A DNA stretch of 64,000 bases from Paraburkholderia sp. NMBU_R16. Lineage in GTDB: Bacteria > Pseudomonadota > Gammaproteobacteria > Burkholderiales > Burkholderiaceae. A model generated the notes under the pieces. The model saw only the letters and a program-made list of their open reading frames with translations, searched no databases and was not told the DNA's origin. The stretch lies in contig NZ_JAAAYE010000008.1 in assembly GCF_013282575.1 (NCBI RefSeq), forward strand, positions 1-64,000. The letters are read 5' to 3'. The translations under genes and the position numbers were made by a program. Of the stretch, positions 9,201-53,897 are shown in pieces; the first letter of the stretch is position 1; every line of letters starts with the position of its first letter.

Positions 9201-11069
9201 TCAAACCAACGGCCGCGCCCCTCGCCGAGCGGGACACCGGATCAGTACCACGCCAGTCCCCGCCGATCGCACAACCAACCGCACGAAATTATTTGTCGAC
9301 GCATACGATTCGAAAAAGCGCGCCAAGATAGCCGCGAAAACGCTGAGGCTGATATCGACCAACGCCGCTTCATCGAATCCGACTGTGATTTCCATACCCC
9401 GCACGAAAGAAGGAAACGAATCATCGAGCGACATCCATTCGATGGCCGGTTTCCAGCCGAGGCTAGCGAGCGCATCGGTGCAACGGCGCGCGGCGGGAGC
9501 GGAGCGGGCGGCATGTTGCTCGAACAGCGCCTTCAGTGAAGGCAGCCCCGCTTGCGTGAGCTCGATCGCATGCGGTGTCAGCGCTGACAACAACCGCCAT
9601 AACGCACCATCGCCGCGCGGCAATTCGGCGGGGCGGCTGGGAGGCGCCAATAGCCTGATCGGGCATGAAAGCGCCGTTTGCTCGTTCGAGAGATCGCCAT
9701 CGGGCGAACCGATCGGCAAGCCCGACGGCAGATCGCCGTTGGTCGCGGTCGTCTCCACGTCGAGTTGAGGTTGCGCGGCGCGAGCCGGCTTACCATCCAG
9801 CCCGACGAGCGATAGCAGCAAGTCGCCATTGCTGCCGACGAGCGCGGCGTCGCGGTCTCGCGCGGCGATCCAGTAGACCGCCGAACCCGTGGCGCTCGGG
9901 CGATGTCCGAACGCACGAAACGGTTGCACGTCGATGCGCGTGCCGCGCTCGGCCTGCGGTGCCGTTTTTTCGGTGCCCGCGAGCTCCCCGAGCCAAACAC
10001 CGTCGATCGAAAAGACTTCGGTCACGGACTCGGCGGCAAGCGGCACCGGCCGCACGGGATAGCGGGTGTCCGTCGGCGTGAGCACGATCGGCGCCGCTGG
10101 CCGTTTGAACAGGTTGATGACCGGCGTACAGCCGAGTTTCAGGGCGGAAGCGTTGAGCGTACCCAGCGCTCGGCCGGCCCCCGAATCCGCTTGTGCTCCG
10201 GATACCGCGACATGCAGCGTAATCCTCGCTGCCGGTCCTGCGGCACGGCGCACTCGCCCCATGTCGATATCGACGAAATCGAACAGCTCGGGAAACGCAA
10301 AGTATTCGAGCAGACATTGAAAAGGCGTTGAAGCGCCGGGCGCCTCGCGCGGCAATAGCCGATCGTTGTCGTCGAAGCCGACCTGCTCGAATGGCACCAC
10401 CGGCAACGCTTTCCAACGCCCACTATCGTCCGCTTCGACGAATGCGGCGCGCGCGTGCAGCAACACCGTGTCGAGGAGGGCGCAAACGAGCGCACGCGTG
10501 CCGGCAAGATGAACGCGCACACGCGACGATGGAACCGAATCGTCGAAGCGCTGCGTCGGTGTGGTGGCTGAAAACGCGATCGAGAGCAGTCCCGAAGCAT
10601 CGGGCGGGAACTGTACGCTCGATGGCGCATAAATCGCCGGGGAGAAGCGCGCCGCTTCGATGCGCAGCGTCGAAAGCGTCACGTCGTAGACGGTCGTGAA
10701 GCGGCAATGCGCGGCGAGCGCATCGAGTTCGGTACCGCGCTCCACGCGCTGGGGCTCGGTCAATAGATCGATAACGGGAGACGGATCGAACTGCGCGATC
10801 GCGCACGAGGGTACCGTGCGCAAGTAACCCGGATACAGCAGCTCGAGCAGTGGCTCGGTGAATTCCGGGTAATCGTCGCCAAGCTTCACGCCGATGCGCG
10901 CCGCCAGAAACGCGAACGCCTGGCTCAGGCGGTCGACATGCGGCTCGTCGGAATGCCCGTTCGACAAGCCGAGCCGTGCCGCGATCCGCGGATAGCGCTT
11001 GCCGAACTCGGCCAACGCGTCGGCAATGAGACCGAGTTCGTATTCGTAGTGCGCAAGCAAGTCTTCCAT
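9201..11069 (-). CDS. tssF: Type VI secretion baseplate subunit TssF
   Basis: 622-residue TssF (VasA/ImpG family, usual length about 600). The N-terminus MEDLLAHYEYELGLIADALAEF and the motif FAFLAARIGVKLGDDYPEFTEPLL are characteristic, as is the C-terminal LRLVVR-like stretch (NNFVRLVVRSAGTG). TssF joins TssK, TssG and TssE to form the cytoplasmic wedge on which the tail polymerises. Here it is alone: none of tssE, tssG, tssB, tssC or tssH is adjacent. It diverges from vgrG across about 160 bp. Confidence 0.9.
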   Translation of the reverse strand: MEDLLAHYEYELGLIADALAEFGKRYPRIAARLGLSNGHSDEPHVDRLSQAFAFLAARIGVKLGDDYPEFTEPLLELLYPGYLRTVPSCAIAQFDPSPVIDLLTEPQRVERGTELDALAAHCRFTTVYDVTLSTLRIEAARFSPAIYAPSSVQFPPDASGLLSIAFSATTPTQRFDDSVPSSRVRVHLAGTRALVCALLDTVLLHARAAFVEADDSGRWKALPVVPFEQVGFDDNDRLLPREAPGASTPFQCLLEYFAFPELFDFVDIDMGRVRRAAGPAARITLHVAVSGAQADSGAGRALGTLNASALKLGCTPVINLFKRPAAPIVLTPTDTRYPVRPVPLAAESVTEVFSIDGVWLGELAGTEKTAPQAERGTRIDVQPFRAFGHRPSATGSAVYWIAARDRDAALVGSNGDLLLSLVGLDGKPARAAQPQLDVETTATNGDLPSGLPIGSPDGDLSNEQTALSCPIRLLAPPSRPAELPRGDGALWRLLSALTPHAIELTQAGLPSLKALFEQHAARSAPAARRCTDALASLGWKPAIEWMSLDDSFPSFVRGMEITVGFDEAALVDISLSVFAAILARFFESYASTNNFVRLVVRSAGTGVVLIRCPARRGARPLV

Positions 11070-16324: not shown

Positions 16325-17308
16325 ATGATTCGTATGGGAGCAGCAACAATGCTTGGTACAGAGGTCTATTTCATCTCGGGTTGTGCGGTCGAAAGCGACA
16401 TTGTCTATCTCGCCACTCAGCTTGAAGAGGTGGACTCGTCCGAATACGCGCATACGAGGATGAGCGCGTACGTTGGGCGCTTGGAGCCGGGCCGGCAATG
16501 GTTCTATCACGACGTCAATGCGAACGTCGTGTCTGTCTGTGAAAAGCGGCAAACGAGCACGGAACCCAGGCAACTGGTCGCGCTTTCGAAGGAAGGCGAG
16601 GTCGAATTATGGACGAGCAAGGACGGCTCTTCCGTCACCGAGAAGATTCCGGACGCTGGCGTGCGTCTCGGCAATCTTGGCTACCTGCGGTCGATTCGTG
16701 AGATCGGTAACACGCTGTTTGCATGTGGGTTCAACAGCCAGGTCTACGCGCGAAACAATGGTACGTGGAAATCGCTGGTCTCGGCACCTTTGGCGTTTCA
16801 TCATGCAGCATCGGACGAGTATGTCGTGTTCAACGGAATCGATGGGTTTTCGGAAGAAGACGTGTACGCCGCGGGCTCCAACGGCTCCCTTTACCACTGG
16901 AACGGCAGCGCATGGCGGCAAATCGAGCTCAAGACCGACGAGAATCTTGAGTGCGTTCGTTGCTATGGGCAGGATGATGTGTGGATCGGCGGAGCGAACG
17001 GCACATTATTGAACGGCAATGTCGTCAGGGGCTTCCGAGATGTCAGCGATATTGCGGACAACGATACATTCTGGTCGATCGCGAAGTTCAAGGAAAAAGT
17101 CTATCTCGGCACGACAAAAGGCCTGTTCGCTTATGACGGGCATGTAATCGCGCCGGTCGTAACCGGGCTGAACCCCGAAGTCGAAACCTATACTGTCGAT
17201 TCGACCGATGATGCGCTTTGGTCGATCGGAGCCAAGGATCTGGTCAGGTTCGACGGCAACTTATGGACTCGGATCGATCATCCCGACAATCCGCCGATCA
17301 AGCCATGA
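16325..17308 (+). CDS. Beta-propeller-like protein of the T6SS effector module (candidate immunity protein)
   Basis: About 327 residues; its ATG directly abuts the toxin stop, and a better ribosome site (GGGAG) precedes an ATG at 16349. It has repeated blade-like units with Trp/Gly-rich strands (SNGSLYHWNGSAWRQIEL, GANGTLLNGNVV, GTTKGLFAYDGH). No signal peptide is seen. It is paralogous to the protein at 17944-18978, sharing the endings DLVRFDGNLWTRIDHPDN / DIVRFDGSSWGRIDHPDN. I do not recognise a catalytic motif; the adjacency to the toxin suggests immunity, but a structural or sensing role is equally open. Confidence 0.7.
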   Translation: MIRMGAATMLGTEVYFISGCAVESDIVYLATQLEEVDSSEYAHTRMSAYVGRLEPGRQWFYHDVNANVVSVCEKRQTSTEPRQLVALSKEGEVELWTSKDGSSVTEKIPDAGVRLGNLGYLRSIREIGNTLFACGFNSQVYARNNGTWKSLVSAPLAFHHAASDEYVVFNGIDGFSEEDVYAAGSNGSLYHWNGSAWRQIELKTDENLECVRCYGQDDVWIGGANGTLLNGNVVRGFRDVSDIADNDTFWSIAKFKEKVYLGTTKGLFAYDGHVIAPVVTGLNPEVETYTVDSTDDALWSIGAKDLVRFDGNLWTRIDHPDNPPIKP

Positions 17309-17943: not shown

Positions 17944-18978
17944 ATGGCGACAAACGTTACATTCACGGTCGCGAAAGTCATCGAAGACGATTGGCTGCTG
18001 ATCGCCGGGTCTCCCGACGGGGATGAGCCGTACACTCCATTTACTCGTTGGTTCCAATACATCGAGGGCGACGCTGAGCCCTGGACTAGTCACGAAACGA
18101 AGTGGTGGGCTCGCAGCGCTACGACTTACTTTTGGCCGGGCGTCGATACGCCGGGCGTCGATACGCCGGGCGTCGATACGCCGGGCGTCGATACGCCGGG
18201 CGACTGGGCGTTGGTCGGCATGTCGCACGAAGGCCACGTCGAGTTCAGCTTCGCAGAGACGATCGTCGAAGAGAAAATTCCGGGTGCCGGTGTATTCGTC
18301 CCGGACGCTGGCGGCTGGGGCTATGTCAGTTCAATCCGCCAGATCGGACGTTTTCTATTTGTGTGCGGAGCCGGCGGGCAGGTATACAAACGTCTAGCCT
18401 CCAACAGTTGGCAGCATATGGACGACGGTCTCTTGCAGGCCTTGCCGATCGATCAGCGATTATTACTGAGCGACATGGGTGGTCCTGACGAAGGCGATAT
18501 ATATGTTTGCGGGAGCTATCCCGGTCCCGCAGGCATCGAAGGACGATTGTTCCACTTCGACGGAAGGACGTGGAGCAGGTTGAGGATTCCGGAGATGGGA
18601 CATTTGAACTGCATCTTGATCGAATCTCCCGATAGCGTTTGGGTCTGTGGTCATAATGGGGCACTTCTGAACGGTAATGCGCGAGATGGCTTCAGAGACG
18701 TATCGAGCGTAGAGCACGATCCGTTGTTCTACTCAATGGCGCTTTTCGGCGGGAACTTGTACCTTGGCTCGCACTTGGGGCTTTACTCGTACAAGCTTAA
18801 CGATGCTCACGCGAAAATCGATGAGGTTGTCACCGGGTTGACTCCGCCTGTGAGCGACGCTGTCACGGTCGACTCGGTTGGCAAAGTGCTCTGGTCCGTG
18901 GGAGAAAAAGATATCGTGCGCTTCGATGGCTCGTCTTGGGGGCGCATCGATCACCCGGACAACGCCTCTACTCGCTAA
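17944..18978 (+). CDS. Second beta-propeller-like protein, with VDTPG tandem repeat
   Basis: 344 residues, paralogous to the protein at 16325-17308 over most of its length (for example HNGALLNGNARDGFRDVSS versus the first copy's ANGTLLNGNVVRGFRDVSD). It carries an unusual insertion of four VDTPG pentapeptides near residues 65-88, encoded by a perfect 15-bp tandem repeat, probably a surface loop. No signal peptide. It is probably a duplicate of the first propeller gene that has diverged, perhaps as immunity to a different toxin; function is not established. Confidence 0.7.
   Translation: MATNVTFTVAKVIEDDWLLIAGSPDGDEPYTPFTRWFQYIEGDAEPWTSHETKWWARSATTYFWPGVDTPGVDTPGVDTPGVDTPGDWALVGMSHEGHVEFSFAETIVEEKIPGAGVFVPDAGGWGYVSSIRQIGRFLFVCGAGGQVYKRLASNSWQHMDDGLLQALPIDQRLLLSDMGGPDEGDIYVCGSYPGPAGIEGRLFHFDGRTWSRLRIPEMGHLNCILIESPDSVWVCGHNGALLNGNARDGFRDVSSVEHDPLFYSMALFGGNLYLGSHLGLYSYKLNDAHAKIDEVVTGLTPPVSDAVTVDSVGKVLWSVGEKDIVRFDGSSWGRIDHPDNASTR
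18136..18202 (+). repeat. 15-bp tandem repeat, about 4.5 copies, inside the propeller gene
   Basis: Four identical copies of ccgggcgtcgatacg at 18136, 18151, 18166 and 18181, followed by a partial unit. Because the unit is a multiple of three, gain or loss of copies changes the number of VDTPG pentapeptides without shifting frame. Confidence 0.95.
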
Positions 18979-21713: not shown

Positions 21714-21905
21714 TTAGCAGCCGTATCCCCAGCGGTTGCAGTTCGGGCCCGGGTCGCTATACCCACCGCGCACACCTTGGATTTCCTCGGCGGTCAGCGT
21801 CCGCAGCGACGACGAGCGACCTTCGCGGAGCGTCATCGGCGTGCGGATTTTTTCGCGCGTGAGCGATTCAGCTGCCTGGCGCTCGACCTGGTTCCTTTCA
21901 TTCAT
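21714..21905 (-). CDS. Double-glycine-leader peptide precursor (candidate tyrosine-sulfated peptide)
   Basis: 63 residues, ATG preceded by GAGGA. The leader ends TLTAEEIQGVRGG, with Leu at -12, Ile at -7, Val at -4 and GG at -2/-1, the exact pattern cut by C39-peptidase exporters. The predicted core is YSDPGPNCNRWGYGC (residues 49-63): Tyr first, two Cys (positions 8 and 15) that could form a disulfide ring. The start, Tyr-x-Asp-Pro-x-x-Asn, resembles the sulfated Tyr motifs of Xanthomonas RaxX and plant PSY1. It lies 69 bp downstream of a sulfotransferase gene and a C39 ABC exporter gene, which supply the predicted modification and export. An unmodified microcin-like peptide is the alternative. 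Confidence 0.8.
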   Translation of the reverse strand: MNERNQVERQAAESLTREKIRTPMTLREGRSSSLRTLTAEEIQGVRGGYSDPGPNCNRWGYGC

Positions 21906-21974
21906 GGTGAATATCCTCGTAAATCCCGCAATTAAAGGCTTCAGTGCCTTCGATCGTGCGGGTATCGATCGAAG

Positions 21975-22784
21975 TCATACAATCGCGATGCCGTGCGCCT
22001 CCACATCGGGACGTTCCCAGAAATTGAACGACTCCAGATGAGCAAACATATCGGGCGGCAAGACCGTGTCGCGCGGCTCGAACGACACGCCGCGCCGCAC
22101 CCGATGCAGCCCCGGCGTATTCACGGCGAGGTCGAACCGGTCTGCCTCGTATTGAACGTTTGCGGTGTCGTGTTCGAACGGGGCTTCGTCAAGATGCGCA
22201 TAAATGCGAGCGAGCACGCGGGCGGGGTCGCGGCACAATGTTTCATAGCGCACCACGAGCACGCGTCCGGCTTCGGCGCCATAGCAAGCCTGCTTCAGTG
22301 CATCTAGCGCGTAGCCCACCATGCCGTTGCTCGCGCAAAGCGCCTCGACACGCTCGTACACCGTCGCGTCCGCCCGGTTGCCGAACAATGCGGACAATCG
22401 ATGGGGATGCTTGCGGGCAAGCCGTTCGAGGCTGTCGATCACCCAGCCGACATTCCGGACGCAGCAAATCGCCCGTGTCGCCGGAAACAGATCGACCAAT
22501 CCCGGCAGCATGCAAGTCCATGAGCGATGCGTATCGATCACGATCGGCCGTACGTCCGCATCGCCGTAGTAGGCATCGAAAACCGCCCGCAACAGCCGTC
22601 GCCGCCGCGCCGTATCGAAATGATGGTGCATCTCGACCGATGCATTCATCGCCTGTAACTGCGCAATGTAGAGCTGGGCGACGGGGCTCGTCATATCCGC
22701 GTGGACAAGTGGATTCTGCCGAAGCAGCGCCGCCAGCAGCGTCGAGCCCGAGCGCGGCAATCCCGACAGAACGTGATAGGTCAT
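21975..22784 (-). CDS. Sulfotransferase, RaxST-like (candidate protein-tyrosine sulfotransferase)
   Basis: 269-residue PAPS-dependent sulfotransferase. The 5'-phosphosulfate loop is SGLPRSGSTLLAALLRQNP at the N-terminus, and the 3'-phosphate site is ICCVRNVGWVIDSLERL around residues 128-144. This is the family type of RaxST, which sulfates the Tyr of RaxX in Xanthomonas. The ATG shares a base with the exporter stop (TGATG), with AAGGAG just upstream, so the two are made together. The probable acceptor is Tyr1 (or Tyr13) of the adjacent precursor's core; small-molecule sulfation cannot be excluded. Confidence 0.82.
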   Translation of the reverse strand: MTYHVLSGLPRSGSTLLAALLRQNPLVHADMTSPVAQLYIAQLQAMNASVEMHHHFDTARRRRLLRAVFDAYYGDADVRPIVIDTHRSWTCMLPGLVDLFPATRAICCVRNVGWVIDSLERLARKHPHRLSALFGNRADATVYERVEALCASNGMVGYALDALKQACYGAEAGRVLVVRYETLCRDPARVLARIYAHLDEAPFEHDTANVQYEADRFDLAVNTPGLHRVRRGVSFEPRDTVLPPDMFAHLESFNFWERPDVEAHGIAIV

Positions 22785-24955
22785 CAGGCGGTCTCCTTAT
22801 GAGCGTGGTCGGTGCCGGCCGCGCCGGCATCCTGGCTTCGGTGTGCCTCGTCATCGTCGACGGGATCTACGCGGCCGTGCTCGAGCCGGAAGACGCGTTC
22901 GACCGACGCAATCGTCTGCGGCCGATGGGCAATGACGATGCGAGTCAGTTGCATCGCGCGCACGGCCGCATTGATGGTGGTTTCATTCGCGGTATCCAGA
23001 TGGCTCGTGGCTTCGTCGAGCAGCAGCAGGCGGGGTTGCTTGTAAAGCGCACGCGCCAGCAGGAGGCGCTGTTTCTGGCCTCCCGACAGCAGACATCCGC
23101 CGGCGCCCACGAGGCTGTCGTAACCCATCGGCATGCGATCGATTTCCGCGTGGAGCCCGGCGAGCGCGGCACAGGCGTGGATGCGCGCGACATCGATGTC
23201 CGCGGCAAAGAAGCTGATGTTCTCGGCAATCGTGCCGCCGAACACGGTGTCGTCCTGCATCACGGTCCCGACGAGACGACGAAAATGTGTCAATCCGATC
23301 TCGTCGATACGCCGGCCGCCAAACAGCACTTCTCCCTCCACGGGTTCGAGCAGCCCTAACAAGATTTTTGCCAACGTCGATTTACCGCCCCCGGACGGGC
23401 CGGTAATGGCGACGCTTTCGCCGGGCTCGATGCGTAGATCGACGCGCTTCAATACCCACGGCTCGGACGGCGCATATCGAAAACTGACGCCGCGCAGCTC
23501 GACGCTCGCCTCGAGACGATCGCGGTCAGTCGGCGACAAGCATCCCGCCACTGCTTCGTTGCGTTCGGGCGCCTGATCGGTAATATCGGCTACCCGTTCC
23601 ACGTGCACGGCAAGCATTCTCAAATCGATGACGCAATCGATCAGCCCGGCAACACGGGATGAGAATTGCTCCCGGTAGGCGATGAGGGCGAACAGCATTC
23701 CCACGGTCAAGCGGCTATCGATGACCGCGAGCGCGCCGATCCAGACGGCCGCAATGCGCTCCAGCCCGAACAGCAATGTGCTGATCGCGCGTTGAACGGC
23801 GACGATGCGTTCGCCACGCAGACCGGCGTTGAACTGGTTAATCAGCAGATTCAGCCAATGCATTGTCCGCAGCGGCACTTGGCCATACAAGCGCACGGTC
23901 TGAATGCCGCGTAGCGTTTCGAGAAAATGATTGTTCTGTTTGCTGCCGAACGCGATCTCTTCCGCCTTGACGTCGCGCATTGCACGAAACGACAGCCATC
24001 GGGACGCGAGGTACAGCGACGCGGCACCGACCGATACGACGCTGACGGCAGTGCTATACGACAGCATCATGGCCACCGTACCGACGACCATGACGCCATC
24101 GACGATCGTTTGGGCAAATCGCGTACTCAGCATGTGCTGGATTTGCTCGACCGATCCGAAGTTGGACTGAACGGCGCCCGGGTGACGCCGTTCGAACCAC
24201 GCGAGCGGCAGCCGCATCAAATGCGAAAAGACGTTCGATAGCCAGCGGAAATTCAGATGCGCGCTGATCGCGGCGACTAGCCATCCGCGAACCGCGGAGA
24301 TCGCCGACTGCACGACGACCAGCAGCGCGAATCCCATCGATAGCACCGCCAGCGTACGCGCGTGAGACGACGACACGAGCCCCCGGTCGATTGCCCATCG
24401 CAGGTGAAACGGCATGGCAATGGACAACGCCTCGAGCGCGAACGCCGATAGCAAAATCCAGCCAAGTTCGGATTTCGCATCGAGACAATATTTGGCGATC
24501 GGTGCGAAGCGCGACAGACCTCGCTTTTCGCTGTGGCACACGAATTCGCTCGATGGCCACAATTCAAGCGCCACGCCGGTGAAATGCCCATCGAATTCGC
24601 GCCACGAAATGTGCCGTAGGCCCGCGGCCGGGTCGTGTATCGTGACGCCGCTTTGGCGCAGCGATTTAAGCACGACAAAATGATTCATGTTCCAGTGCAG
24701 AATGCACGGCAGCCGTAGCTCGCTGAGATCCTCGATCTCGATGCGTAACGCTCGCGACGACAACGCCAAAGCGGAGGCAATATCGATGAGATCCGCGAGC
24801 GTTGCACCTTTGCTGGACAACACGATCTGCTGTCTGGCTTCGCGCATCGAAATCGGTTTTCCGTGGAAGGCGGCCATCATGGCCACGCACGCGAGACCGC
24901 ATTCGGTCAGCTCGGCCTGGAGCAAAACGGGGAGTTTCCCGCGTAGCCGAATCAT
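22784..24955 (-). CDS. Peptidase-containing ABC transporter (C39 peptidase, RaxB/bacteriocin-exporter type)
   Basis: 723 residues from the ATG at 24955. Residues 1-130 are a C39 cysteine peptidase with Gln13, catalytic Cys19 (TECGLAC), His92 and Asp108, all present, so leader cleavage should be active. Then a six-helix ABC membrane domain and an ATPase domain with GPSGGGKSTL, signature LLSGGQKQRLLLARAL and Walker B LLLLDEATSHLD. It would cut the double-glycine leader and pump the core peptide across the inner membrane. The start overlaps the upstream fusion-protein fragment by four bases (ATGA) and its end couples to the sulfotransferase. Confidence 0.92.
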   Translation of the reverse strand: MIRLRGKLPVLLQAELTECGLACVAMMAAFHGKPISMREARQQIVLSSKGATLADLIDIASALALSSRALRIEIEDLSELRLPCILHWNMNHFVVLKSLRQSGVTIHDPAAGLRHISWREFDGHFTGVALELWPSSEFVCHSEKRGLSRFAPIAKYCLDAKSELGWILLSAFALEALSIAMPFHLRWAIDRGLVSSSHARTLAVLSMGFALLVVVQSAISAVRGWLVAAISAHLNFRWLSNVFSHLMRLPLAWFERRHPGAVQSNFGSVEQIQHMLSTRFAQTIVDGVMVVGTVAMMLSYSTAVSVVSVGAASLYLASRWLSFRAMRDVKAEEIAFGSKQNNHFLETLRGIQTVRLYGQVPLRTMHWLNLLINQFNAGLRGERIVAVQRAISTLLFGLERIAAVWIGALAVIDSRLTVGMLFALIAYREQFSSRVAGLIDCVIDLRMLAVHVERVADITDQAPERNEAVAGCLSPTDRDRLEASVELRGVSFRYAPSEPWVLKRVDLRIEPGESVAITGPSGGGKSTLAKILLGLLEPVEGEVLFGGRRIDEIGLTHFRRLVGTVMQDDTVFGGTIAENISFFAADIDVARIHACAALAGLHAEIDRMPMGYDSLVGAGGCLLSGGQKQRLLLARALYKQPRLLLLDEATSHLDTANETTINAAVRAMQLTRIVIAHRPQTIASVERVFRLEHGRVDPVDDDEAHRSQDAGAAGTDHAHKETA

Positions 24956-25119
24956 CGCATCTGCGCCATGTACGCGAAGATCGTCGCGGCGGCCGCGAGC
25001 GAGCCTGCGAGTGCCCACGACGCCCACGCAGGCCATGCCCGGCGGATCAGAACCGTGCCGGCCATCGTGCGTTGCCGGTAATTCAGTGCCGCCGTCCGAA
25101 AGATCCGGTTTTGCGCCAT
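24952..25119 (-). CDS. Truncated HlyD/RaxA-type membrane fusion protein (N-terminus and membrane helix only)
   Basis: A 55-residue frame: a cytoplasmic start IFRTAALNYRQRTMAGTVLIRR, matching the N-termini of HlyD-type fusion proteins that partner C39 exporters, then one hydrophobic helix (about residues 30-51), then MAQMR-stop. The full family is about 400 residues, so the entire periplasmic part is absent. The stop overlaps the exporter's ATG (ATGA). It may be a deletion remnant kept for coupling or a miniature accessory subunit. The ribosome binding site is weak. Confidence 0.55.
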   Translation of the reverse strand: MAQNRIFRTAALNYRQRTMAGTVLIRRAWPAWASWALAGSLAAAATIFAYMAQMR

Positions 25120-25675
25120 AAGAGAATCATTTTCAGATGCGTCGTCTCAATGAGAAAGCTGCAGTGCACCGTATCGATTTACCTTGAAAGTGGATCGATC
25201 GGCGAGCACTTACAGTCTTCCATAGTTATCGATAGGCAAATGTAAGGGATTCGTTGAATTTAGCGTCAGATAATCCTTATTGATTCGCTAGTGCGCCCTT
25301 GAATTCGCACTGCTCCGGTGATACCGCGCCGACGCTGAAAATCAGCGAGCCATCGTCGAATAAGACTGAACGTGACGATTCAGCGGACCGGTCATTCATA
25401 CCGAGCCGCGTAATTGGGGCTCAACCGGTCGAGCAATTTCGTATGAGCCCGCTCTTCAGACTGGCGTCTGTCGAGCCGTTAGCAAGTCAGAAGGAAACGA
25501 AGCCGTGCCGCCGCGGCTATCGAATCGGTCATTGGCCCCATGCCGCTCGCTCGGCTCGGCGTCAGGCGCGGGCACGTGCATTCGCATTGCGCTAAGCGGA
25601 TGAAAGGCGCCCTCATTGACCTCATCGCGCGGCAAGGCACGCGAGTGAATGCACTCGCGGCTACAGGGAGAGAAC
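25120..25675. other. Intergenic region between the peptide exporter operon and motA
   Basis: About 556 bp without a convincing gene on either strand. The left third is richer in A/T than the surroundings and should hold the minus-strand promoter of the exporter operon; the right end holds the motA leader, with AGGGAGA before the ATG. I found no clear sigma-28 motif, second precursor or terminator here. Confidence 0.5.
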
Positions 25676-26551
25676 ATGTTTGTCGCAATTGGATGGATCG
25701 TCGTACTCGGTTCGGTGATCGGGAGTTTCGTCGGTGTAGGCGGGCATTTGCCGGCGCTCCTGCAGCCGTTCGAACTTCTTTGTATCTTCGGTGCCGCGTT
25801 CGGTGCGTTCGTTGTCAGCAATCCCATCACGACGCTCAAGAAGACGATCAGAAGCCTGCCTACCGTCTTTCATGGCCGCGGCTATGACAAGGCGAAGTAC
25901 CTCGAGCTCATCGCACTGCTCTACGAACTGCTGCAAAAGGCCCGCAAGGAAGGAATGATGGCGCTCGAGTCGGATGTCGATGCGCCCGAACAAAGCCCGC
26001 TCTTCCAGAAATATCCGCACATCGTCGCCGATCACCATCTGCTCGATTTCATCCTCGACTACCTGCGCATGATGTCGACGGGCAACATCAATGTGCTCGA
26101 AATGCAGGACCTGATGGACGAAGAGCTCGTCACGCATCACGCGGAAGAATCGATCGTCGCCAACGCGATTCAAAAAATGGCGGACGGTCTACCGGCGTTC
26201 GGCATCGTCGCGGCCGTCATGGGTGTGGTGCATACGATGGGCTCGGTCGGCGAAGCGCCGGCCGTGCTCGGCAAGATGATCGCGGGCGCGCTCGTGGGCA
26301 CGTTCCTCGGCATCCTGCTTTCCTACGGATTCGTCGGCCCGCTCGCCGATCTGCTCAACGCCAAGGGGCGCGCTGCGGCGAAGCCCTATCACTGCGTGAA
26401 GGCGGTGCTGCTCGCCTCGCTGAGCGGCTACGCACCCTCGATCGCGGCGGAGTTCGGTCGCAAGGTGCTCTTCACGTCCGACCGTCCGACGTTCCAGGAA
26501 CTCGACGACGCCGTGCGCGCCACGAAGGGCACCGCGAAGGCGCAGGCGTAA
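25676..26551 (+). CDS. motA: Flagellar motor stator protein MotA (first copy)
   Basis: 291-residue MotA with four predicted membrane helices (N-terminal pair in residues 1-55, second pair around 165-220) and the cytoplasmic loop ARKEGMMALESD. The conserved DGLPAFGIVAAVMGVVHTM precedes helix 3. MotA forms the proton-driven stator with MotB in the inner membrane. The ATG at 25676 has AGGGAGAG upstream. It is followed 10 bp later by motB. A second, diverged motA lies at 53037, so this strain carries two stator sets. Confidence 0.92.
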   Translation: MFVAIGWIVVLGSVIGSFVGVGGHLPALLQPFELLCIFGAAFGAFVVSNPITTLKKTIRSLPTVFHGRGYDKAKYLELIALLYELLQKARKEGMMALESDVDAPEQSPLFQKYPHIVADHHLLDFILDYLRMMSTGNINVLEMQDLMDEELVTHHAEESIVANAIQKMADGLPAFGIVAAVMGVVHTMGSVGEAPAVLGKMIAGALVGTFLGILLSYGFVGPLADLLNAKGRAAAKPYHCVKAVLLASLSGYAPSIAAEFGRKVLFTSDRPTFQELDDAVRATKGTAKAQA

Positions 26552-52283: not shown

Positions 52284-53897
52284 ATGGCGATCAAGAGCGT
52301 CGTGCTCGAAGTCAAGGAAATCACGCTGGCCATCGAGCTGATCGAACTGGGCGCGCGGTTGCAGTTGCTGGAAGCGGAGACGAGCTTGTCGCGCGACCGG
52401 CTGATCAAGCTCTATAAGGAGCTGAAAGGCGTTTCGCCGCCCAAGGGGATGTTGCCGTTCTCGACGGACTGGTTCATGACCTGGCAGCCGAACGTCCATT
52501 CGTCGCTGTTCTTCAACACTTACCGTTTCATAACCGCGCACGGCAACTGCGAGACGATCCAATCGCTCGTCAAAAGCTACCGGCTGTACCTCGAACATGT
52601 GTCGCTGCACGGAGACGAGCCGCTTCTGAGCCTCACCCGGGCCTGGACGCTCGTGCGGTTTTTCGACTCGGGCATGCTTCAGATGACGGCCTGCGTACGT
52701 TGCAGCGGACATTTCGTCGCCCACGCGCACGACCCGCACCAAGGTTTCGTCTGTGGGCTGTGCCAGCCGCCCTCGCGCGCCGGCAAAACCCGAAAGGCGG
52801 CCGAGCGGGCCAGTGACGGGGCTTTGCAGAGCTCGCTGCTTGAAAGCCTGAAACGCCTGCCGAACGCCTCTCAAACGCCTGTTCGTGCCCTGCCACCGGC
52901 GCAAACGGGGCGGCAACCCTCCCTCTGCGGGTTTGCACGACACGTAACCGTTTGCTCTCGTCCTCAAAGTTTCGATTTGGCTGCCGTAAACCTGACTAAC
53001 GGCGGTCTGTCCGCCGACCACTATGAGGACCCGGCAGTGCTGATTTTCGTTGGAACACTCGTGACCGTGCTGTCCGTTTTCGGCGGCTACGCGTTGGCGG
53101 GCGGCCATCTGGGCGCGCTCGTGCAGCCTGTCGAGATCCTGATGATCGCCGGCGCGGGCTTGGGCGCGTTCATCCTGGGCAACGGACTGAAGACGATCAA
53201 GGCGACTTTCCGGCTTTTGCCGACGCTCTTCAAAGGCTCGAAGTATACGAAAGAGGTCTACATGGAGCTGATGGCCCTGCTTTACGTTTTGCTTGCAAAG
53301 GCACGTAAGGAAGGGACGCTGACGCTCGAGGCCGATATCGACGATCCGGAAAAAAGCCCGATCTTTACCCAATACCCGCGGATTCTCGCCGACAAGCACA
53401 TCGTCGAATTCCTGACGGACTATCTGCGGCTCATGGTCGGCGGCAACATGAACGCCTTCGAGATCGAAAGCCTCATGGACGAGGAGATCGAGACGCACCA
53501 TGCCGAGGGCGAAGGTCCCGCGCACGCGCTCATGCGTGTCGGCGATGCGATGCCGGCTTTCGGCATCGTCGCGGCCGTGATGGGCGTCGTTCATACGATG
53601 GCCTCGGCCGACCAGCCGCCCGCGGTGCTCGGCGCGATGATCGCGAAGGCCCTCGTGGGCACGTTCCTCGGTATTTTGCTTTCGTACGGACTGATCGGTC
53701 CGCTTTCGAGCCTCGCCGAACAGCGCGTGGCCGAGTCCACCAAGATGTTCCAGTGCATCAAGGTCACGATTCTCGCGAGCCTGAACGGCTACGCACCGGC
53801 GATTGCCGTCGAATTCGGCCGCAAGGTGTTGTTCTCGACCGAGCGTCCGTCGTTCACGGAACTCGAGGAACACGTGCGCCGCGTGAAGGCGAAGTGA
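52284..53897 (+). CDS. flhC: FlhC open reading frame continuing in frame into MotA (537 codons)
   Basis: Residues 1-175 are normal FlhC: KEITLAIELIELGARLQLLEAET, then the zinc ligands Cys137, Cys140, Cys157, Cys160 (ACVRC, FVCGLC). FlhC is normally 180-190 residues, but no stop occurs here: the frame continues through about 75 codons of atypical sequence and enters MotA at codon 252. The 75-codon stretch contains a sigma-28-like promoter and a ribosome binding site, so it looks like intergenic DNA. In the +2 frame a TGA occurs at 52814-52816, so a single indel could restore a normal FlhC end. Either a genuine fusion or a frameshift/sequence error; FlhC itself should still fold. Confidence 0.85.
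   Translation: MAIKSVVLEVKEITLAIELIELGARLQLLEAETSLSRDRLIKLYKELKGVSPPKGMLPFSTDWFMTWQPNVHSSLFFNTYRFITAHGNCETIQSLVKSYRLYLEHVSLHGDEPLLSLTRAWTLVRFFDSGMLQMTACVRCSGHFVAHAHDPHQGFVCGLCQPPSRAGKTRKAAERASDGALQSSLLESLKRLPNASQTPVRALPPAQTGRQPSLCGFARHVTVCSRPQSFDLAAVNLTNGGLSADHYEDPAVLIFVGTLVTVLSVFGGYALAGGHLGALVQPVEILMIAGAGLGAFILGNGLKTIKATFRLLPTLFKGSKYTKEVYMELMALLYVLLAKARKEGTLTLEADIDDPEKSPIFTQYPRILADKHIVEFLTDYLRLMVGGNMNAFEIESLMDEEIETHHAEGEGPAHALMRVGDAMPAFGIVAAVMGVVHTMASADQPPAVLGAMIAKALVGTFLGILLSYGLIGPLSSLAEQRVAESTKMFQCIKVTILASLNGYAPAIAVEFGRKVLFSTERPSFTELEEHVRRVKAK
52965..52990 (+). promoter_or_regulatory. Sigma-28-like promoter upstream of the second motA
   Basis: CAAAGTTT (52965-52972), 10 bp, GCCGTAAA (52983-52990), close to TAAAGTTT-N11-GCCGATAA. 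It lies 47 bp before the motA GTG, inside the frame that joins flhC and motA. Confidence 0.6.
53037..53897 (+). CDS. motA: Flagellar motor stator protein MotA (second copy)
   Basis: 286 residues from a GTG at 53037 with GAGGA 7 bp upstream, giving the usual start VLIFVGTLVTVLSVFGGYALAGGHL. It has four membrane helices and the conserved ARKEGTLTLEAD loop and DAMPAFGIVAAVMGVVHTM. About half identical by eye to the first MotA. The same stop codon also terminates the flhC frame. It begins the chain motA-motB-cheY-cheA and is the stator of the main flagellar operon. Confidence 0.9.
   Translation: MLIFVGTLVTVLSVFGGYALAGGHLGALVQPVEILMIAGAGLGAFILGNGLKTIKATFRLLPTLFKGSKYTKEVYMELMALLYVLLAKARKEGTLTLEADIDDPEKSPIFTQYPRILADKHIVEFLTDYLRLMVGGNMNAFEIESLMDEEIETHHAEGEGPAHALMRVGDAMPAFGIVAAVMGVVHTMASADQPPAVLGAMIAKALVGTFLGILLSYGLIGPLSSLAEQRVAESTKMFQCIKVTILASLNGYAPAIAVEFGRKVLFSTERPSFTELEEHVRRVKAK

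Follow-up and report, generated by a model that had tools for sequence, protein, structure and literature searches.

Bacteriocin loci that export through a C39 peptidase-ATP-binding cassette (ABC) transporter comprise an adaptor, the exporter, TolC, a double-glycine (GG) peptide and an immunity gene. The available text of two sources describes RaxX of Xanthomonas as the first identified prokaryotic tyrosine-sulfated ribosomally synthesized and post-translationally modified peptide (RiPP) and reports the complete cluster only in that genus (PMC8872720, PMC6637879). Here we describe an operon in a 64,000-nucleotide stretch of Paraburkholderia sp. NMBU_R16 (the window), which encodes on the minus strand, in this order, a probable adaptor stub, a C39 exporter, a sulfotransferase and a precursor peptide, followed by a hairpin. 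An operon for a sulfated RiPP is the best single reading, and one that we hold with modest confidence. In our reading, a RaxX-like locus for a sulfated peptide was assembled separately here, and its export across the outer membrane is uncertain.

Gene order, catalytic residues, a true GG leader and a TPST-like enzyme family can all be read from the sequence. The stop codon of the stub and the start of the exporter overlap by 4 bases, the exporter stop is overlapped by the sulfotransferase start (TGATG), and 69 nt separate the sulfotransferase from the precursor. The earlier note on this DNA had proposed the coupling of exporter and sulfotransferase through TGATG and a GG precursor of 63 residues 69 nt further on, and both proposals hold. 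The hairpin 3' of the precursor stop has a z score of -4.8, and none of 200 shuffles was equally stable. It lacks a U run and is absent from the terminator scan output, and it possibly marks the 3' end of the operon or mRNA.

Table 1. Coordinates of the operon features in the window
Feature	Positions	Strand	Evidence
Probable adaptor stub, 55 aa	24952..25119	-	Profile of 28 adaptor N-termini and position
C39 peptidase-ABC exporter, 723 aa	22784..24955	-	Pfam, residues, relatives
TPST/RaxST-like PAPS sulfotransferase, 269 aa	21975..22784	-	Pfam, family profile vs PDB, conserved residues, tree
Precursor peptide, 63 aa (48-residue double-glycine leader and 15-residue core)	21714..21905	-	Open reading frame list, leader pattern
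Hairpin, 12-bp stem, GCAA loop	21675..21702	-	Fold vs shuffles

The exporter contains the Pfam domains Peptidase_C39 (3e-32), ABC_membrane and ABC_tran, with Walker A, LSGGQ, Walker B and H-loop strings in its ABC part. The peptidase residues are intact, as in a RaxX-type system: Gln13, Cys19, His92 and Asp108 are all found at the positions given in the earlier note. The start was picked by likeness to relatives, the reading frame being open up to 25036. At E <= 1e-110, 59 of 398 family genomes (own genome included) have a relative with 40-49% identity, and plasmids yielded matches in 1051 records (E <= 1e-80); among the best 25 of 193 matches in NCBIfam, the top ones lie well under the cut-offs. 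Judged by these relatives, the exporter is a member of a common Burkholderiaceae group.

The sulfotransferase matches Sulfotransfer_3 in Pfam (1.3e-17). When a profile of 23 family members was compared with the PDB, protein-tyrosine sulfotransferases (TPSTs) 1 and 2 ranked first (4e-10 to 2e-8), above polyketide and small-molecule sulfotransferases. Residues R11, D84, R87, W89, R110, S118 and H227 are invariant in 36 aligned sulfotransferases and E51 is present in 35 of the 36. In a 36-row tree, the window enzyme stands alone on a long branch, without a supported partner; on this placement it is a deep branch of the RaxST/TPST-like family. A TPST-like enzyme using 3'-phosphoadenosine 5'-phosphosulfate (PAPS) is therefore present in the operon as in a RaxX-type system, as judged by sequence. 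According to the available text of PMC6637879, PDB entry 3AP1 is human TPST2, and Arg-11 and Ser-118 of RaxST are essential PAPS-motif residues; RaxST Arg-11, Ser-118 and Arg-129 are matched in our enzyme by residue number, RaxST His-50 is replaced by Val, and position 129 is variable in the family.

The enzyme could instead have a glycan, a lipid or a surface protein as its substrate, with no link to the peptide exporter beyond the common operon. Enzymes with non-peptide substrates occur in the Sulfotransfer families of Pfam, a match to NoeE was obtained, though far under the cut-off, the deep branch would allow another specificity, and relatives elsewhere adjoin large proteins. Because the family profile is nearest to TPSTs, and because the sulfotransferase gene overlaps that of the exporter with the precursor adjoining, we consider a non-peptide or surface-protein target very unlikely.

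At E <= 1e-30, 17 of 398 family genomes contained a relative of the sulfotransferase; the numbers were 12 of 398 for the phylum (1e-40) and 3 of 369 for the class (1e-35). The own genome is included each time, and the samples overlap such that some genomes were drawn more than once. Plasmids gave 15 records (1e-30) and viral contigs none. Neighbors were judged by open reading frame (ORF) in 31 other loci, with L042 left out, and in 14 of them (L035, L036, L041, L043, L044, L045, L046, L048, L049, L051, L118, L122, L124 and L195) the sulfotransferase has a large secreted-type ORF no more than two genes away, consistent with an enzyme acting on exported polypeptides. Pfam named domains in all nine of the large neighbor proteins submitted: ESPR/PATR autotransporters (L035, L036, L043), DUF4347 with cadherin or Ig domains (L041, L118, L124), an Ig-like/FG-GAP protein (L051) and matrixin (L044, L048). 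The proximity of RaxST/TPST-like enzymes to large secreted proteins hints at sulfation of bacterial surface proteins, which may exceed current expectation. An ABC transporter is present in 6 of 35 sulfotransferase loci. The C39 domain of the window was found by tblastn in none of the 35, several of which are shortened by contig ends, and a divergent C39 domain could escape this search because a single query was used. In the available text of PMC6637879, raxST homologues elsewhere are likewise unlinked to raxX and mostly unlinked to raxA or raxB.

Some of these loci show further groupings. In L045, L048 and L049 (also L044 and L047), the sulfotransferase, an adenosine 5'-phosphosulfate (APS) kinase, an HlyB-like ABC transporter and a TolC-like ORF lie together; the kinase was identified by Pfam in L045 and by eye in L048 and L049, and an adaptor-like ORF is additionally present in L044 and L048. 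Such groups resemble type I secretion systems for a large protein that is sulfated. In a Nostoc plasmid, an annotated cysC follows the sulfotransferase. A scan of genome contigs with the sulfotransferase, which detects close relatives only, returned two loci, neither with an ABC match. A second enzyme of the same family, 46% identical, is encoded in the own genome at C68:6228-7019 (L050), and the adjoining APS-kinase-like ORF (by eye) was counted as PAPS supply.

The precursor consists of the leader LTAEEIQGVRGG and the 15-residue core YSDPGPNCNRWGYGC. Its only two tyrosines (49 and 61) and two cysteines (56 and 63) all lie within the core. In its GG leader, its length of about 60 residues and its core Tyr, the peptide resembles the precursor of a RaxX-type system, and GAGGA precedes its start codon. 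We defined a strict leader pattern as a hydrophobic residue at -12, Glu at -8, hydrophobic residues at -7 and -4, and Gly-Gly. Among 511 small ORFs of the window, the precursor alone carries it, compared with 3 of 16,869 small ORFs in a shuffled control (20 windows, 60-base blocks), 1 of 5,082 in background loci, that one being a peptide adjoining a C39 exporter, and 18 of 3,597 around exporter relatives (40 loci). By this pattern, the leader is a true GG leader and not a product of chance, in agreement with the earlier note.

In the mechanism for which we infer the substrate, the sulfated residue, the cleavage, the disulfide and the function, the ribosome would make the 63-residue precursor, and the sulfotransferase would transfer sulfate from PAPS to Tyr49, the first residue past the cleavage site, or to Tyr61. 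The C39 domain would then cleave after Gly-Gly and the ABC part would carry the core over the inner membrane, past which the two cysteines would probably form a disulfide. Crossing of the outer membrane would need the adaptor of another system or some other route. If exported, the core most likely serves signaling rather than killing.

The alternative that the core kills competitors, with sulfation as a side modification of a microcin-like bacteriocin, draws on the relatives of the exporter. We compared 40 family loci around such relatives, some of which end at contig ends; they contain adaptor and exporter ORFs, GG peptides and often, by eye, a TolC-like ORF, and the peptides beside related exporters are often glycine-rich and bacteriocin-like. 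However, 24 of the 33 distinct cores in leader/core pairs from these loci are 45-103 aa long, and only two (L161 and L165, both W/N-rich) have 20 aa or fewer, so the 15-aa core is more in keeping with a tailored peptide than with a bacteriocin. Since, moreover, no immunity-like ORF was noticed in the operon, where only the exporter and GG peptide of a bacteriocin locus were seen, the bacteriocin-type alternative offered by the earlier note is weakened, and we give it little credence. Near L161 there is a radical-SAM-like ORF (by eye). Short W/F/N-rich ends mark the GG peptides beside exporter relatives in L137, L140, L142, L161 and L165; these may be cyclophane-type RiPPs.

The first ORF of the operon, which the earlier note passes over, occupies the place of raxA. 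Its 55 residues comprise an N-terminal segment and a membrane helix only, ending just past the helix, and it is probably a truncated HlyD/RaxA-type adaptor. One motif found a full adaptor ORF of 417-460 residues in 28 of the 40 related loci, and against a model of these 28 N-termini the stub scores 13.5 bits (E 0.0075), a score reached by none of 2000 shuffles (best 9.6). As a tblastn query against adaptor starts it gave a best E of 0.57; 11 full adaptors used as tblastn queries against the window missed the stub, with matches of E 0.3 or worse elsewhere, so its identity rests on profile and position. The profile signal is modest, and the location before the exporter is the stronger argument. 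From these genes, the step across the inner membrane can be argued, whereas that across the outer membrane cannot.

Several observations weigh against an operon for a sulfated RiPP: (i) No relative of the precursor was found in 11 genus genomes (best other match E 0.23, with an internal stop) or 300 order genomes (best other match E 0.011, also with an internal stop), the own genome being included in both, nor in viral contigs or plasmids (three plasmid records, E 7 or worse); conservation therefore gives the precursor no backing. (ii) Tyr occurs within the first three core residues in 7 of the 33 control peptides, for which reason we rejected its position as proof of sulfation, and tblastn found the sulfotransferase in none of the 40 exporter-relative loci, some of them shortened by contig ends. 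TPSTs favor an acidic neighbor of the target Tyr, and the only acidic residue near a candidate Tyr of the core is Asp at +2. (iii) Alone, the sulfotransferase reaches tyrosine sulfotransferases with an E of only 0.07. The positions of the catalytic Glu pair of TPSTs are taken by Met31 and Thr32 in the window enzyme, so the catalytic base may be Glu51 if the chemistry is the same. (iv) A promoter scan returned no sigma-70-like promoter. (v) A periplasmic adaptor (RaxA) is represented by the probable 55-residue stub only, which lacks a clear ribosome site, and because the adaptor appears to be a stub, passage through the outer membrane is in doubt. The rest of the genome (562 contigs in all) gave no close adaptor: the only match of a related adaptor there is 25% identical (E 4e-9); a type I adaptor model gave 18 stretches, none above the cut-off and the best at C9, a separate secretion locus; and no TolC was noticed adjoining the operon. 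(vi) The core departs from the motif of plant PSY hormones and RaxX, DYXXXX[AP]NXXHXP, in which it has Tyr and [AP]N only, with Gly-Tyr in place of Asp-Tyr and neither His nor the final Pro.

Elsewhere in the genome, 16 TolC-like stretches were found, none above the cut-off. Positions 4593-13459 of C9 (L208) form an export locus of their own. It contains adaptor and TolC-like ORFs, together with one like SurA and one of 1045 aa that looks like a cyclic-nucleotide-binding ABC exporter (by eye).

The main rival is a decaying locus, i.e., a once complete sulfopeptide or bacteriocin exporter from which most of the adaptor has been deleted. It would account for the short ORF where 28 of 40 related loci have a full adaptor, for the weak start site of the stub and for the presence of the operon in the own genome alone among 11 of the genus. 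Yet the frames of exporter, sulfotransferase and precursor are open, the catalytic residues that we checked are kept, the stop of the stub neatly overlaps the exporter start, and the codon-position G+C of the precursor is similar to that of neighboring genes. Decay is unlikely, although it is the alternative that we take most seriously.

The earlier note also placed the system beside motility genes. Window genes left of motA are absent in all nine same-genus relatives compared, one of them only 5 kb deep, and the tenth genus relative has no close motA. With the flank differing in 9 of 9, the stretch that holds the operon is variable, and its apparently incidental link to motility is one of neighborhood only; we rejected a conserved motility-linked locus on this ground. 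By blastn against plasmids, the locus gave partial matches only, with 28 records at 90-95% identity. The window holds two motA copies that are 56% identical, at 25649-26551 beside the operon and at 53043-53891 in a flagellar/chemotaxis cluster (by eye). Further ORFs noted in the window are one with a short in-frame tandem repeat of GVDTP units (17944-18978), a similar-looking one at 16325-17308 (by eye) and, further left, one with likeness to type VI secretion genes (9201-11069, by eye).

The DY, N, H and P of the PSY motif are common to RaxX according to the available text of PMC7913133, and we rejected PSY family membership for the core because the motif is incomplete. Core residues 1-7 (YSDPGPN) each occur at the same place in at least one Arabidopsis PSY peptide in the available text of PMC11534595. 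Of 6304 13-mers that begin with Tyr, taken from 743 predicted ORFs in the fetched loci, 2 score at least as high against the PSY profile as the core does, and so do 0.29% of core shuffles. Its best identity, 5/13, is to PSY3, PSY5 and PSY7, but also to RGF1, and this value is reached by 1.7% of 13-mers and 7.0% of shuffles with PSYs alone and by 4.7% and 16% with 28 plant peptides. The comparison was made once the core was known, and the likeness to plant PSY hormones is suggestive at best. A bolder and quite improbable proposal would be that a sulfotransferase and a C39 exporter were joined independently outside Xanthomonas, giving a disulfide-ringed, tyrosine-sulfated core whose YSDPGPN imitates plant PSY hormones by convergent mimicry, or a new class of sulfated bacterial signal.

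No description of a sulfotransferase/C39 pair outside Xanthomonas was found in titles and abstract starts of the open-license PMC papers listed (at most 20 of up to 59 matches), which is weak evidence of absence, and the two genes stand together as here in none of the loci compared (35 with the sulfotransferase, 40 with the exporter). A second case, assembled separately, would take sulfopeptides beyond Xanthomonas, and it would yield a mining rule: a TPST-like enzyme adjoining a C39-type exporter, and a single defined mass to seek. The calculated mass of the core with its disulfide is 1685.64 Da, which becomes 1765.59 Da with one sulfate and 1845.55 Da with two.

Four kinds of known loci share parts with the operon. 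Burkholderiaceae adaptor-C39 loci with GG peptides have exporters 40-49% identical to ours and the same leader type, but they have bacteriocin-like peptides and a few short W/N-rich cores, carry a full adaptor by motif in 28 of 40 cases and often a TolC-like ORF, and include a sulfotransferase in none of 40. Loci with sulfotransferases beside large secreted-type proteins have the same enzyme family (34-49% identity) and a C39 domain in none of 35. Methanobactin operons likewise combine, in some cases, a bacterial RiPP with a sulfotransferase, MbnS, but act on Thr rather than Tyr and use MATE exporters, with no mention of a C39 exporter (PMC3621798, available text). The operon resembles raxX-raxSTAB of Xanthomonas in its sulfotransferase and C39 exporter, in a precursor that has a GG leader and about 60 residues, and in a Tyr early in the core, at position 1 here and at Tyr-41 of RaxX after leader residues 1-39 (PMC6637879, available text). 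Unlike raxX-raxSTAB, it has a stub as adaptor and the order stub-exporter-sulfotransferase-precursor, and unlike RaxX its core has two Cys but no Asp-Tyr and neither the His nor the Pro of the PSY motif. The rax gene set recognized by the earlier note therefore stands for three genes in one Burkholderiaceae operon and fails at raxA, where a 55-residue ORF is found; as no adaptor was found, a complete rax set was rejected. Its inference of a RaxX-type sulfopeptide is supported in part, by the parts and their order, but not by the adaptor, the PSY/RaxX motif or any relative of the peptide. The operon is a candidate rather than an established member of the RaxX type: up to the inner membrane it would work like the RaxX system, from which it departs in its adaptor and in the motif of its core.

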